This document shows positions 8,498 to 19,573 of a stretch of DNA of 64,000 nt, one piece after another. Below the pieces are notes generated by a model, which saw nothing but the letters and a program-made list of their open reading frames with translations, was not told the origin of the DNA and searched no databases. Source of the DNA: Basidiobolus meristosporus CBS 931.73. Its lineage: Eukaryota; Basidiobolomycota; Basidiobolomycetes; Basidiobolales; Basidiobolaceae. The position numbers and the translations under genes were made by a program. The stretch is taken from positions 35,403 through 99,402 of the forward strand of contig MCFE01000302.1 in assembly GCA_002104905.1 (NCBI GenBank), read 5' to 3'. The first letter of the stretch is position 1, and each line of letters begins with the position of its first letter.

Positions 8498-10852
8498 ACT
8501 AAGTTCTCCTAGATTGGACATCTTGAACTCCTTGGATAGGCTGGATTTAGTTTCTTCCAATGTTTCAAGGTTAATGGCGGCTATAATAAGATCATCCACA
8601 TATAGAGCTAATAGAACTGGATTTGCTCTATCTGGCTTATAGTATATACCATAGTCAGCATTACTTCTTTTGAAACTCAAAGATTCCAAATAAGAATCTA
8701 TCTTGCAATTCCAGGCTCTTGGTGATTGTTTGAGACCATATAGTGACTTTTTAAGCTTGCAGACCAAATGGGGGTTTTCTTGGTCAACAAACCCATCAGA
8801 CTGGTCCATATACACCTCCTTGTCAAGTTCTCCATTCAAAAATGCAGTTTTTACATCCATTTGATGAATAAAAAACTTATATTTGGCTGCAATAGCCAAT
8901 ATTAATCTGATGGAATTAAACTTGGCTACCGGTGCAAAGGTCTCAGTATAGTCAAGTCCTTTTGTTTGAGAGTATCCTTTGGATACAAGTCTTGCTTTGT
9001 ATCTTTCAATTGTACCATCAGCCTTGTATTTTGTCTTGAAGACCCATCTGCATCCAATTGATTTTTGGTTGATTGGTAATTTGACTTAGTCCCAAGTTTG
9101 ATTTTCCATCAGGGCCTGATATTCCTCAGTCATTGCAGATCTCCAAAACTTTGTCTGAGGGCTATTTAGGGCCTCTTTTACAGTCTGGGGTTCATCAATA
9201 TAGACTGAATAGGCATAGGCTAAGTTTGTACCCTCATTGATATAGTAATTTGGGCTATTTCTTGTCTGATTTGATCTCTGGGCATTTGATACTGGAATGA
9301 TAACTTCTGGGATATTCCTGGGCACTGATTCTGGCTGAACCATGGTTGTAGAGTCCTCTGGAGTGAAAAAATTTTCATTGTTTTGCTCTGATTCAATCCT
9401 GACAATTGGTGGACTTGAGATCTAATTTTTGTCATCATCTGATGTCATTTTTTGTGAAATTTTTGAATTTTCATCAAACAACACATCCCTGGACTTGATC
9501 AGCTTCTTTGCTTTGGTATTGTAGAGTCTGTATGCCCTACTCTCACTACAGTAGCCCAAAAATATGCATTTTACACTTTTTGGCTCAAATTTTGACTGAT
9601 TTCCGGCCAGTTTTTTGGCATATGCTGTGTACCCAAATATTCTTAGATGTTCTGCACTTGGTCTGTATCCATACCATGCTTCAAATGGAGTAGAATCACA
9701 AAGTATTCTGTTATAACTCCTATTTTTCAGGTATTCAGCAGTGGCAACTGATTCCTCCCAAAAATCATAGGATAATTTTTGATCATGGATCATAGATCTT
9801 GCCATATCAGTTATTGATCTGTTAGCTTGTTCTGCTACTCCATTTTGCTGTGGGGAGTATGGTACAGTAGTCTCTTGCTTTATCCCATGAACTTTGCAGA
9901 AGTGGATGAAGAGTTTTGAGGTATATTCTCCACCATTGTCAGAGTGTATTTTCTTGATTTTTTCACCAGTTTCTCTCTCCACCATGGCTTTAAACTCCCT
10001 GAACTTAGACAGAGCTTCTTCCTTTCTCTCCATGAAGTAGACCCATGTGTATCTTGTATAATCATCAATAAAAGTGATTAAATACTTCATCCCGCCTAAG
10101 GATGAATTTTGCATAGGTCCACACAGATCTGAGTGAATTGGAACTAATTTTTTCTTAGTTTTGATTAACCCAGAGCTCTTGAACAATTGTCTGGCTTGTT
10201 TCCCATATATGCAGGCTTCACAGTGCTCCAAACTAGCTGGGGGATCAATTTTCACTGCAGAAATTAGCTGATCTTTGATCATTTTACGCAGATAATCAAA
10301 ATTGATGTGCCCAAATCTCCTGTGCCAAAGCATTGGTGTTTCTTCATTTAAGTTACTTATATTGGCTTCCAAATATGATGGAATATAAGTCAACTTGTAT
10401 AGATTTTGATCTCTGATGCCCAAAGCAATATGGGCACCATTTTGATCAGTGATCCTGCATCCAGAATTGTCAAAACTGAAACTGAGTCCTTCTGCTGTGG
10501 CCTTGCTTACAGAGAGTAGGTTCTTGGCTATTTCTGGTACATAGAGTACTTCTTTAAAGGTCAGTGTATGGCTTCCTTCACTGCTTCTAAGGTTTACTTG
10601 GATAGTTCCTTCTCCCACTGCATCAAGTGTTCTATTGTCACCCATGAAAACCTTCTTAATTGGAATTTCTTGATATTGGGTAAAAAGTTCTTTTTGGTGT
10701 GTAAAGTGTTGAGATGCTCCAGAATCAATATACCACGTCTGAGAATCCTTGTTTGTGGTCATATTTAGTGCAGATATGAATAGTCTATCTTCAGTTGTTG
10801 CAGCATTTCCATATTCAGGCTTCTTTTCCTGATTATCTTTCTTTTTGAGACA
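8498..10852 (-). pseudogene. copia pol, 5' part: protease, integrase, RT
   Basis: In order: aspartic protease WYIDSGASQHFTH (near 10730); integrase zinc region with HRRFGH and CEACIYGKQ; integrase core with D in HSDLCGPM, D in IHSDNGGEYTS and E in NGVAEQANRS; and RT with CRWVFKTKYKADG, DVKTAFLNGELDKEVYM, KSLYGLKQSPRAW and the YVDD active site in LALYVDDLIIA. All four segments are in one frame, broken by TAG 9422-9424 (DDDKNxISSP) and TAA 9086-9088 (TWDxVKLP). RT is cut by the foldback element. Confidence 0.9.
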
Positions 10853-11564
10853 TCAGTCTGATGTGTGTCCTTTCCTTTTGCAGTAGTTACAAAACAGGTT
10901 GCTGTTGCCTTTGTAGGGTCTTGGGTACCTCCTGTGTTGGTTATCATTGCTTATTAAAGCATTTTCTTCTTCCTTCTTATTTGCGCTTGATTTTCTTAAT
11001 TCTTCATCCAGGAGCCTTCCATATACATAATTTAAGGTCAAATCTTCAGTTCTGGACTCTAGGGCTGATACAAGGCCCTGAAACTTGTCTTTCAGGCTAT
11101 TAAGGATGGTAACTATCACATCCTCATCAGTAGTTGGTACACCCACAGATTCCATCTCATCTACCAGCAGGGTAATTCTGTTAATTAGATTTTTCATTTC
11201 TTCTCCTAGCAGCATCTTTGTAGTAAAGAATTTTTGTCTCAGATACATTTTCTTGGCAGCTGAACATGACTGGTAGGTGTCTTCTAATGCTTTCCAGGCA
11301 TTCTTTGCCGTTTTTGCTCTTGAGCATTGAATTAGCAATTTGTCCTTGACATTAAGGCAAATGCAGTTAAAGGCACTTTGTTCTTTCTTCTGGTACTTCA
11401 AGGCTTCCTCTCCCACGTTTTTTGGAGGGCATTCTTCCCCCATTACAATATCCCAAAGGCCTCTTTCTTGTAGCAGCATCTTCATCTTCACCTTCCACAC
11501 TTGGTAGTTAGATCCATCCACTTTTCAGCAGAGGGAAAATTCCAGTAATAGCAGTAGTAGACAT
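10853..11564 (-). pseudogene. copia gag
   Basis: Likely start ATG 11562-11564 (MSTTAITGIFPLLK). A one-base frameshift near 11523 then leads into VDGSNYQVWKVKMKML and the copia gag polypeptide, through KNAWKALEDTYQ and a zinc knuckle CNYCKRKGHTSD. The knuckle is interrupted just before its last Cys by TGA 10853-10855, so a terminating product lacks a complete CCHC. Gag packages the element RNA in virus-like particles. The stop fits decay of a CGA codon, since the next codon is the expected Cys. Confidence 0.85.
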
Positions 11565-11580
11565 TGCAGAGAGTGACAGC

Positions 11581-11944
11581 TTGGGGCTCATAACCTGTTG
11601 TAAGAGTCTTGGAGATATTGGAAGTGATTGGGAGAACAAGTAGATTATGTGGTTTTCACTTAATGATTTATTGAATGTAAAAGTAGTATTTATACTTTTA
11701 CCTGGTCTTGGCATTACAAGCACATAGAATAGATTAAGGAAGGTCCCAAGAACATGTGTGCAAGGTTTGGGGCTGTTTGGACAACTTTGAGAATTTTCAT
11801 GTTCTGGGTACCTGGTATTTTGGTGAAAATATTCTAAGTAAATCCCAACAAGGAATTTGGTCAGTATTCTCTAGGATTTGAAGGTGATGATCTAAGTGAC
11901 TAAGTCAGATGAATATTTAGGTGGAAATACAAATTTTTACAACA
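11581..11944 (-). repeat. copia 5' LTR with adjoining primer-binding site
   Basis: 349-bp LTR (11596-11944), same length as the 3' LTR. Read on minus, the internal sequence right after CA is GGTTATGAGCCCCAAG (11580-11595), where the tRNA primer-binding site lies in copia elements. I did not assign the tRNA. Confidence 0.8.
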
Positions 11945-12234
11945 GATTGTCAGTGATTAGGACATATTACGACTTGTAGGAAGCTAAGGAATGGTGTGCT
12001 TAGCAGGAAGCAGAAGCTCTACAGTGAGATATTCAATTGATCCAGAGTGAGAGTAGATCATACATTTGGATATCTATAGAGATTCAGCATATTAGCAGGC
12101 AAATACAGAGGAAAGTCATGTACAGGAGAAAACGGCAGAATAGGTAAAATAGTTAAAATACTTATCAATGCCAGTATATTTGTACAAGAAGACATCCACT
12201 CAGAGAAGTGTGTCTGGAGAATTATGAGGAGTAA
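11945..12234 (+). pseudogene. Harbinger transposase copy 2, 3' part
   Basis: Continues the copy cut at 6522, starting with the duplicated GATTG then TCAGTGATTAGG. It holds the third catalytic region (VDHTFGYL-like around 12055, with the Glu codon changed) and the C-terminus to a TAA at 12232-12234. Stops and frameshifts are present. The right subterminal zone and terminus follow to 12396. Confidence 0.75.
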
Positions 12235-16404: not shown

Positions 16405-17222
16405 AACCACCTTGCAGAGGGTATGAATGACTCAGAGCAAGCTTAGAATACTAGGTTCAGAAGCTCCTATAGACTCCCATATCCCAGAGTGTTCTGCAAC
16501 AGGTTCCATATAAGGAATATTTTGGATACCTTCCCAGTCAGGACTAACAGACCTTCTATAGGGCAGAGGCACTTTTACTCTGGCAAGTACAAGGCACACT
16601 GTGTGAAGTTTCAAGCACTGTCTGACATTGAGGGTAACATCATCTGGTTTAGCGGGCCATTTGCTGGAAGTAGGCATGACAAAGCACGGTGGGTAGAGAA
16701 TCATCCAGAATTCAGTAGAGGTGATAAATGTATGGCAGACTTAGCTTATATAGGAGAGAATTGTCAGAGATTAGGATGTATTATAGCTTATAGGAAGCCA
16801 AGGAATGGTGTGCTTAGCAGCAAGCAGAAGCTCTACAATGAGATATTTAATTATTTCAGAGTGATGGTAGAGCATACATTTGGATATCTGAAGAGATTCA
16901 GCATATTGGCAGGTAAATACAGAGGAAAGTCATATATAGGAGAAAACAGCAGAATACGTAAAATAATTAAGATACTTATCAATGCACAGTATATTCATAC
17001 AAGAAGACATCCACTGAGAGAAATGTATCTGCAGTAGTAGGAAGAGTAAATAGAGCAAGGAAAGCACTACTTTGAGCAACTTAAGTAAGATTGATTAAAA
17101 TTACATGTAACTCTATCCTACCACTGGCATTATGGTAGAAATTATAGTGCCAGATGGTGCCATAACAATCTGGCACTATAAACAGGCTGGTACTCTGTGG
17201 CACTATCTAACAGAACAAGTCT
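16405..17222 (+). pseudogene. Harbinger copy 3, 5'-truncated transposase and right end
   Basis: Begins abruptly after a (TA)n run in the leader of X1, at the point matching residue 80 of the intact transposase (NHLAEGMNDSEQA). From 16489 the ORF is open to TAG 17035-17037 and keeps D (ILDTFPV), SRHDKARW, D (MADLAY) and E (VEHTFGYLKRF). The subterminal repeats and GGAACAAGTCT-type end (here CAGAACAAGTCT) finish at 17222. The next bases AAT are the expected target-duplication position. The C-terminus is shortened by an earlier stop. Truncation presumably came from break repair at the TA repeat. Confidence 0.8.
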
Positions 17223-18902
17223 AATATATTTGGTGAAAGATCTGAACAGACCTTGGTCAATGGCAGCTTTAGAAGTGATAACACCATCTTCTTGATTATA
17301 TCCAGTGTAAGACTGTATCATAACAACCAAGTTAACCCTGTTGGGTTGTTCCTCCATCTTTAAGGTGTCACACATCAAAGTATTAACAAGAGGAACTTGT
17401 GCATATTCAAAGAAATTGATGCCACCAGAAGTAATAGTAGAAGGAAAGTAAAGTTGCATACCTTGCTTAATTATGGCAGAAGCAAAAACATTACAAACTG
17501 ACTGGCTGTGATTGGCATAAGGAACCATAGAGGCAGAAATACCCACCATAACCCAAGGATGAATTTGCATTTGATTATACATTAGGTAGTGGCCATGATA
17601 CCCAATGTCACCCAAAAAGACTTGAGATTGCTCATCAAGATCAACAAATTCTATCTTACCAGTATCAAGAAGTTGAGACCAAGAGAGGCAAGTTAATTTG
17701 TTCCAATCTAAGGGGGGACCACAAAGTTTAAGCAAAGGTCTCATAAATTGGCCAGAAGAGGATTTAACATAGAAGATGCAGGGGATGTACCAGCATAAAA
17801 CCCAACCATGGATTCATCAAAAAGTACAAGATACTTAACGTCACAATTATCATAGGATAAGTTTTCTTTCAACTAACTCCAGACATCAGAAAGTTGTGTG
17901 TCAGAAATGGTAGGAAGAAGGCAAGTGAGGGCAAGATGTTTGATAATACAAATGTTTTTACCCCTGGGAACTTCACACATATAGACATATCCTAACTAGG
18001 ATGAATGTGGAGAAGCTGTTGACCTTCTTTAAGCATATTGACAAGTTCATCTTCCAAAAGAGTTCAAAGTCAATATTTGGAATTGGCGACTTTAATAGCA
18101 CAAGTTAAGATTTGGTTGAGAAGGAGATTGGAAGCTTTACCAATCTTGTTACCATAATTGTCACAGTCCATAGGTTGAAGGAGACCCATTGCAGTCATGA
18201 GAGCAAGATAAGTCAACAATATTGGGAGAGTGGGAGGGGAGGTATTTAGATTCAAGAATGCTTAGTTCATCAGGGGAGATGGTATTATCAGATTTGGTCA
18301 TAGAAACTAAAAAGATAGTAGAGACAGTATTAACATGAGATCTGTTGGTGACAAGAAGGGCAAGGATCTTGTATATTTTACCAAAGCCAAAACCTGAACT
18401 ATTTATGACCCAATAAATAGAAAGACATTTGAGACCATTAAGATCATTGTGGGAGGAGGAGACATCAAAATAGAGATCAACAGAATTATTGACACAGACA
18501 CGTAAAGGAAGTGTGGAACCTTTAAGGCAAGTTTTGGAAGAGACAAGATTATCAGCAACAGAGATGTAAGGGATGAAGATGTTGTGTAATTCTTGAATAA
18601 GAGCAACACATTTGATGCCATCAATGATGTAATAACCTTTGTTGTTGATGAGGGGAATATTGCAGACAGGTTTGCCATTGCAGTGGATGTGATGTCCTTT
18701 GTAAGTAAGTTGATGAATGATAGCATCATCAGAAGTTATTTTTAGGGGATGAATTTATGCCATAACCAAATTTATCTTCAAGTTTGGATTTGAATATTTC
18801 TAAGATGTGAGTATGGGAGCGCAAGATGTTAGCATCAAAACTGTATTCAAGGAAGAATTTTTGTAAATGGTTGGAGTAAAGATCAAAGAGGGAGGGAGGC
18901 AT
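17223..18902 (-). pseudogene. Divergent RNA polymerase second-largest subunit (RPB2 family), N-terminal half, decayed
   Basis: Read on minus from ATG 18900-18902 (MPPSLFDLYSNHLQKFF). After a frameshift near 18732 comes the RPB2 protrusion/lobe with IPLINNKGYYIIDGIKCVAL. After a shift near 18220, CDNYGNKIGKASNLLL (family DxDHYGNKR motif). Then CEVPRGKNICIIKHLAL (family E-PEG-N-G motif, near 17970). From 17744 comes RPLLKLCGPPLDWN, then VDLDEQSQV, QIHPWVMVGISASM, ANHSQSVCN (family HNQSPRN) and SYTGYNQEDGV with AIDQGLFRSFTKY, cut at 17223 by Harbinger-3. There are at least three frameshifts and stops at 18729, 18161, 18070, 17873 and 17741. These motifs are diagnostic of DNA-directed RNA polymerase subunit 2. 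The distance from conserved eukaryotic Pol II, changed key residues and lack of visible introns argue against the host gene. A nucleocytoplasmic large DNA virus or linear-plasmid polymerase is the likeliest source (inference). About 560 of ~1,150 residues are present. Confidence 0.8.
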
Positions 18903-19226
18903 AATAGGGTGCTATATATTAGTGGTAGAGCAAGGATGAAGAGCTGCAAAATAATTCTAAGTAATAAGTTTAAATGTAATTAGTCAGCACAAGTAAATTT
19001 AAACTGGGACTAATTGTGGTTTTGAAATTAAAGGCAAACTATCATGTTACCAAAAATACAATCTATTAATAGGGTTATGTCAGAGTTGTTTGATGAATCA
19101 AAGGTATATTTGTCAGAGCCATTAGCAACAGGAGGGCCATATATAAGAAGATTGGTAATGTATATATACAAAGGGTAGACAGATCCAAAGGGTTTGTGCA
19201 TTACAACAGTAAGAAGTCCAGAGGGG
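18903..19226 (-). other. Upstream flank of the RPB2 relic with a ~65-codon open stretch
   Basis: Next to the RPB2 start is a ~120-bp AT-rich spacer. Before that, on the same strand, a reading frame (ISPSGLLTVVMHKPFGSVY... NSDITLLIDCIFGN) ends at TAA 19028. It matches none of the transposon families repeated in this window, and repeat homology begins only at about 19227, so it may belong to the same foreign insert. I do not recognise it. No ATG lies at a convincing start. Confidence 0.3.
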
Positions 19227-19573
19227 CTAATGTTATGATACAGTGGATTATATGAATTGCACAAGGGGAGACAGAAAAAGGAAAAACCTTTTGGTTAACT
19301 AGAATAGTAACATTATACAGTACTAGCGGTAGGCTGCCATATTGCCACTGAAATACTGTCAGGTTTTTTGCCGTATAAGGCAATTGGATGTCCTGGCTGG
19401 TTGGATCCAATTAAAGTAGTTGTAGAGTGCAATAAAATTGCAACAATGCCATGCAATTATCATCACAGCACCTATCAAATCTTGTCAAGTTTTATAACAT
19501 TATTGGGCAGTAAAATTAGCAAAACACTGTTGTAATCTTGTCATACAATTGTTAAGAGGGTCACTAATTCCAA
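19227..19573. repeat. 3' segment of Tnp2-type element (repeat Y)
   Basis: Matches segments at about 62030-62400 and 63430-63640, and more weakly 28540-28760 and, inverted, 29480-29600. All contain a run encoding YGSLPLVLYNVT-like and HPIA-YGKK-like peptides on the strand opposite to Tnp2. It lies downstream of the Tnp2 C-terminal region in copies B and E. Coding status is unclear. Confidence 0.45.

Follow-up and report, generated by a model that had tools for sequence, protein, structure and literature searches.

RPB2 gene pieces in the window

The window, i.e., the whole stretch of 64,000 nucleotides of DNA of Basidiobolus meristosporus CBS 931.73 (phylum Basidiobolomycota) that was analyzed (contig C539:35403-99402 of an 89-Mb assembly), was crowded with transposon pieces of the Harbinger type, identified with Pfam, and of the Copia and Gypsy types, identified by eye. 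Many of these pieces recurred on a second contig, C180, whose homologous open frame served as reference for the gene described here. On the minus strand of the window, between approximately positions 17224 and 18983, lay a series of pieces coding for the RNA polymerase subunit RPB2. Motifs recognized by eye and the frames of the open reading frames (ORFs) showed that the pieces followed the order within RPB2, and Pfam and PDB E-values confirmed the ordered RPB2 landmarks that had been reported earlier for this strand.

In gene order, the first piece (18729-18983, minus strand) was matched by the N-terminal frame of C180 over positions 18983-18744 (tblastn, 57.5% identity) and included an ORF at 18729-18911. 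It was followed by a piece with the motif GYYIIDGIKCV (18236-18712, minus strand; C180 residues 1-159), contained in ORF 18161-18754(-). This ORF alone showed no match in Pfam or PDB and was linked to RPB2 by tblastn, in which 159 residues aligned to the C180 open frame with 69% identity. The next two pieces, also on the minus strand, carried CDNYGNK (18007-18219; C180 residues 172-242; 66% identity by tblastn) and CEVPRGKNICIIKHLAL (17786-18007; residues 285-358; 62% identity by tblastn), with residues 243-284 absent at their junction near position 18007. The last piece (17224-17813, minus strand; C180 residues 369 to approximately 570; 70% identity by tblastn) carried QIHP, ANHSQS, SYTGYNQED, and GLFRSFTKY. 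Its ORF, 17142-17813(-), matched RNA_pol_Rpb2_6 (PF00562, E=2.9e-16) in Pfam and solved Pol II RPB2 chains in PDB (E=8e-25), E-values that ruled out a chance match to RPB2.

Relative to the 879-residue C180 frame, the window copy spanned residues 1-573 and, in addition, the N-terminal piece at 18744-18983, and it therefore represents approximately two thirds of the gene; its earlier description as a partial subunit was correct, but the estimate of about half was too low. C180 residues 160-171, 243-284, and 359-368 were unmatched, stops occurred at five codons of the reference frame, and seven frame-shifting gaps were found within aligned blocks.

The fossil was truncated by a piece of a PIF/Harbinger-type transposon (16405-17223, plus strand), which was 92% identical over 829 nt to C180:73793-74621 and contained a DDE_Tnp_4 domain (E=3.3e-22) in ORF 16447-17037. 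Position 17223, given in the preliminary description as one limit of the fossil, thus coincided with the end of this element. On the other side, where 18902 had been given, the coding remains extended further and were followed by a broken piece of a second gene (19035-19250, plus strand). This piece showed 66% identity to residues 2-72 of a 213-aa protein encoded head to head with RPB2 on C180 (C180:70061-70699, or L038:61-699), with one TGA and one TAG inside the match and a collinear match at the DNA level. The head-to-head order of RPB2 and its neighbor was therefore common to the window and C180. Further broken pieces of the neighbor gene occurred on contigs C514 and C869. Its protein matched no Pfam family and had a single relative, 86% identical, among 5.8 billion proteins. 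Since the neighbor gene was present, although broken, and the head-to-head order was kept, the inserted DNA was a block of foreign DNA rather than a single cDNA.

Additional RPB2 copies and their decay

A search of the genome yielded 123 matching places, the majority of which matched only the Harbinger end of the query. Virus-type RPB2 copies other than that in the window were found on C180, C1, C662, and C504, and two further pieces of 37 residues on C341 and C480. The C180 copy consisted of an intron-free open frame of 879 aa, in which Rpb2 domains 6, 7, and 3 scored above, and domains 4 and 5 below, the Pfam cut-offs; its own NCBI record (P0001) is a 485-aa "beta and beta-prime subunits" protein. 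An in-frame stop separated the 879-aa frame from the N-terminal frame, so that the C180 copy was also broken. The C1 and C662 copies were 96% identical, and both were situated amid Copia-type pieces (by eye).

Differences between the window copy and C180 at codon positions 1, 2, and 3 amounted to 21.9, 11.8, and 40.8%, with a dS of 1.09, a dN of 0.18, and a dN/dS of 0.16 (572 codons). A similar dN/dS of 0.13 (105 codons) was obtained for C504 and C180. In other pairs, differences were distributed nearly evenly over the codon positions: 12.3, 11.3, and 15.2% for the window copy and C504 (dN/dS 0.62), 10.9, 9.1, and 12.9% for C180 and C1 (dN/dS 0.45), and 3.3, 3.7, and 3.7% for C1 and C662 (dN/dS 0.78). 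An excess of third-position differences was thus confined to pairs that compare two lineages, one comprising the window copy and C504 and the other C180, C1, and C662. Because dN/dS was 0.13-0.16 between and 0.45-0.78 within these lineages, they must have diverged under selection on the protein. These codon patterns indicate that each lineage was first a working gene, which was later copied within the genome and decayed. In C1 relative to C180, 104 of 226 CpG bases had undergone C>T or G>A changes, compared with 46 of the 790 remaining C or G bases, as would be expected if cytosines had been methylated.

A quick protein tree (tree 1, see below) instead grouped the window piece with C1 and C662 (97) and not beside C180. 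In that tree, the rows of the window, C1, and C662 had 18-23% of their columns filled, and the codon-based grouping probably deserves more trust than the placement of such short, decayed rows.

Phylogenetic placement of the virus-type RPB2

A search of the protein database with the C180 protein gave 3,520 matches, of which the best 120 were listed. Among these 120, the nearest relatives besides C180's own record were metagenomic proteins (47 and 44% identity), and three records were filed under Linnemannia, Podila, and Mortierella. Tree 1 (78 rows, LG+G4) included 43 of these 120 proteins, 14 of the 24 loci from IMG/VR, and 13 of 80 loci from archaea. The copies of the window, C1, and C662 were entered as pieces, and C504 was left out. 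A more careful tree 2 contained 30 of these 78 rows; asfarvirus sequences were in neither tree. In tree 1, the pieces of the window, C1, and C662 joined C180 with a support of 100, a result for which the program warned of long branches meeting. In tree 2, C180 and 12 homologs formed one clade with a support of 100/100 and a long stem, apart from four host polymerase loci, six archaea, and six of seven viral rows from IMG/VR. The seventh of these rows, L062, neighbored the clade (support 96/92).

Members of this clade, hereafter the short-RPB2 clade, were proteins of 866-1,101 aa that originated from metagenomes and from the three Mortierella-group records, i.e., those of Linnemannia elongata, Podila clonocystis, and Mortierella sp. 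GBA30 (P0084, P0090, and P0092). Like C180, with which they shared the 100/100 clade, the metagenomic and Mortierella-group proteins were short RPB2s in which all catalytic columns were invariant. They differed from C180 in forming a separate sub-clade, at 36% identity in the database search.

A fast-evolving duplicate or a retrocopy of host RPB2 would account for the intron-free C180 frame and for the best PDB match of the fossil being solved Pol II, and would agree with the presence of a second Pol II-type RPB2 locus in the genome. However, a topology in which C180 was constrained with the four host loci was rejected by the AU test (p-AU 5e-75), and one in which the whole short-RPB2 clade was constrained with two Pol II loci was rejected less strongly, at a moderate level (p-AU 0.008). 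The metagenomic affiliation of the nearest listed relatives and the transfer of the neighbor gene together with RPB2 also argue against a host origin, which we regard as extremely improbable. The fossil thus fell outside fungal Pol I, II, and III, and the trees, the AU tests, and the end of the transposon at position 17223 jointly support its description as an RPB2 that is divergent, of virus type rather than host origin, and disrupted by a Harbinger-type element.

Against the viral reading, a profile of the clade matched Pol II RPB2 in PDB with 1e-168, ahead of asfarvirus (2e-93) and poxvirus (8e-73) RPB2. A fold search with the RPB2 model (mean pLDDT 65.7) gave, by E-value, a pithovirus protein as best match (24% identity, with up to 30% on shorter alignments), and an asfarvirus fragment ranked 32nd. 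No relative of the C180 protein was found in IMG/VR with the protein itself. Profile A1 detected 24 IMG/VR loci, and all 14 that were entered in tree 1 fell outside the short-RPB2 clade. A phage or bacterial plasmid source was also considered and rejected: tblastn of the C180 frame in phages returned 18 records, none of which covered 80% of the query, and the helicase of the related viral contig described below matched one plasmid record, at 25.5% identity.

In L062, RPB2 was found in two frames on opposite strands, approximately 7 kb apart, one with domains 1-2 and the other with the remainder (1-1317 and 8510-12085), and with a MutS-HNH gene between them. From this layout, the L062 RPB2 itself appears to be divided or rearranged.

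Host polymerase genes had been assumed to be single copy. This did not hold for Basidiobolus, whose genome contained two Pol II-type RPB2 loci, on C683 (L006) and C462 (L007). RPB1 was represented by three long frames and by an additional RPB1-type locus in several pieces at C602:187054-190168. The extra RPB2 and RPB1 loci may be allelic or may form a second Pol II-type set of large subunits.

Other viral-type genes in the genome

Contig C367 contained a divergent RPB1 in two frames split by a stop, adjoining an RPB5 gene (PF01191, E=8.6e-10). Beside these genes lay a 305-aa frame in which primase-like and zinc motifs were recognized by eye. With the RPB2 copies, the genome therefore held RPB1, RPB2, and RPB5, all multisubunit polymerase genes of the type found in nucleocytoplasmic large DNA viruses (NCLDVs). 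The primase-like gene was matched at 10 places on eight contigs, and on C575 matches to the primase-like gene and RPB1 occurred in the same order as on C367. Its protein had five database matches, comprising its own locus and proteins with 80, 73 (B. ranarum), 33, and 32% identity, and one relative, P0126, was encoded on a contig of 37 kb; the protein gave no Pfam family at cut-off, no NCBIfam match, and no useful PDB match, and its structural model was poor (pLDDT 44). In the stretches examined, the RPB2 loci were not physically joined to those of RPB1, RPB5, and the primase-like gene. These two groups of genes would nevertheless derive from one kind of virus.

Three broken copies of a family B DNA polymerase gene, with a YGDTDS motif and shared stops, were found at C757:158822-159515, C127:6124-6808, and C1248:20901-21521. 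Their shared stops suggest that they multiplied after inactivation. In the stretches examined, these copies were likewise not joined to an RPB2 locus.

Capping family PF01331 gave only weak matches, on C1202 and C693. Major capsid families PF16903 and PF04451, VLTF3 (PF04947), and Herpes_UL52 had no match in the Basidiobolus genome and likewise none in the control genomes. D5_N (PF08706) was also without a match in Basidiobolus, while 3 of 14 control genomes were positive; a broken or lost gene is possible. Of the viral hallmark genes envisaged in the preliminary description, capsid and D5 primase genes were thus not found, while RPB1, RPB5, and a primase-like gene came to light.

A related viral contig and the division of RPB1

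Alignment of the primase-like protein led to one partial IMG/VR contig (L158), which encoded a helicase, a B-lectin protein, RPB1, a primase-like protein, uracil-DNA glycosylase (UDG), and TFIIS. The best PDB match of the helicase was poxvirus VETFS (1.7e-14), and NPH-I gave 5.9e-9. A 606-aa frame had a cap methyltransferase as its best, weak PDB match (0.097); based on its motifs, we take it to be a probable three-domain capping enzyme. In gene content, L158 represents a transcription set of poxvirus type. Neither RPB2 nor a capsid gene was found in the part of the contig that was examined. The B-lectin protein (L158:4094-7507; 1,138 aa; PF01453) possibly binds to the host surface.

RPB1 of C367, with the catalytic motif NANFDGDE, and that of L158, with NADFDGDE, both ended just after the bridge-helix region. 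On C574 and C754, Rpb1 domain 5 was matched from position 66 only, on C754 below the Pfam cut-off; within 301 bases at C574, the opposite strand carried a frame that was not preceded by A' sequence. Other IMG/VR RPB1 loci were single frames of at least 1,381 aa in 6 of 14 cases, and shorter or cut in the remainder.

RPB1 is described as divided between the bridge helix and the trigger loop in some Archaea and in the pGKL-type virus-like elements (VLEs) of yeasts, which encode a capping enzyme and a helicase of their own, a short RPB2 part, and a polymerase that is placed with poxviruses (PMC6211774). These likenesses, and the lack of capsid gene matches for PF16903 and PF04451 in Basidiobolus and control genomes alike, would fit a source among early VLE relatives, namely a linear plasmid of the cytoplasm that lacked a capsid and from which the nucleus captured genes for the polymerase, the helicase, and capping. 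However, the account in PMC6211774 describes VLE RPB2 as fused to RPB1, whereas the C180 frame ended with the Rpb2_7 zinc domain at residue 878 of 879 and was not fused to RPB1. Of 12 genes, none carried the ATNTGA promoter described for VLEs in the same source in its 60 upstream nucleotides (0.93 in shuffles). Moreover, short-clade proteins were situated on contigs of up to 137 kb (P0050), the longest contig for P0005 measuring 124 kb. UDG, TFIIS, and RPB5 are not known among the genes of VLEs. A linear plasmid is accordingly considered an unlikely source. Where the preliminary description had left the choice between an NCLDV and a linear plasmid, RPB1, RPB5, and the primase-like gene, together with the VETF-type helicase, TFIIS, UDG, and probable capping enzyme of L158, now lean toward an NCLDV-like source, with the division of RPB1 and the lack of matches to capsid families as the features that point to a plasmid.

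Origin of the fossil and comparison with known systems

Taken together, these data indicate that the source was, with high probability, a large NCLDV-like DNA virus infecting Basidiobolus, a broken copy of whose RPB2 gene is held in the window. Such a virus would bring its own multisubunit RNA polymerase and transcribe its genes outside the nucleus, presumably in the cytoplasm. Its polymerase would include a short RPB2, RPB5, and an A'-like RPB1 ending after the bridge helix, with the A''-like remainder encoded elsewhere, and a primase-like protein would be encoded beside RPB1. It presumably formed particles. Two or more related viruses would have been involved, of which pieces entered the genome separately and some were copied inside it; all pieces would then have decayed by CpG-type mutations, stops, deletions, and transposon insertions, and the genomic copies probably do nothing now.

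The viral DNA could instead have come from a virus of prey or gut protists, via feeding or contamination, without infection of the fungus, a possibility that has been raised for Gonapodya and Allomyces (PMC5294986). Against this stand the two separately selected lineages within one genome, the presence of the primase-like gene under B. ranarum (73% identity) and of short-clade RPB2 under three Mortierella-group fungi, and the position of the pieces amid host-type transposons, one of which cut the fossil. We therefore consider this explanation very unlikely and retain infection of Basidiobolus by an NCLDV-like virus as the preferred reading.

According to the account in PMC10640383, no double-stranded DNA virus of fungi is known. 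The same source reports a 1.5-Mb asfarvirus-related insert in Rhizophagus irregularis 4401 that, as observed here, places genes of a large DNA virus, among them those for the two large polymerase subunits, within the genome of a fungus, and in which no major capsid gene was found either. The Rhizophagus insert is described as single, recent, continuous, poor in transposons, and near Asfarviridae (PMC10640383), whereas the Basidiobolus pieces are scattered, broken, and cut by transposons. Viral replication genes in other early-diverging fungi, reported for Gonapodya, Rhizophagus, and Allomyces, resemble the present case but are DNA polymerase, MCP, or D5 genes and were placed with phycodna- or asfarviruses (PMC5294986). 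Within the poxvirus set of VETFS, NPH-I, TFIIS, and UDG, the first two are matched by the L158 helicase, and TFIIS and UDG are encoded on L158; these poxvirus-like genes were seen on L158, where RPB1 is divided, and not in Basidiobolus.

If the pieces belong together, the fossil is a remnant of an NCLDV-like lineage with a short RPB2 and a divided RPB1. Giant viruses endogenized in fungi have been described before; the present lineage appears to be new. Among the matches listed in a literature search, none referred in its title or the start of its abstract to a DNA virus of Basidiobolus. A 2020 survey of basal fungi by Gong et al. may include Basidiobolus.

The remains of two related viruses in one Basidiobolus genome, with relatives filed under the Mortierella group, mark a lineage that is worth seeking. 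Its divided RPB1 and short RPB2 make it a candidate for an intermediate stage between viruses of poxvirus type and the killer plasmids of yeasts. It is conceivable, albeit rather doubtful, that the fossils represent a previously undescribed large DNA virus lineage of early-diverging fungi, characterized by a short RPB2 and an RPB1 divided in the archaeal style, and that the cytoplasmic killer plasmids of yeasts descended from this lineage by losing the capsid and fusing RPB2 to RPB1. The origin of the killer plasmids, which have been placed near poxviruses, can now be tested with trees and gene content.

Repeats adjoining the viral-type genes

Tandem arrays of unlike units (82-263 bases), spanning approximately 3 kb, adjoined the RPB2 copy on C180 (C180:63859-67044, or L037:3859-7044). 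Shorter tandem arrays adjoined the cluster on C367.
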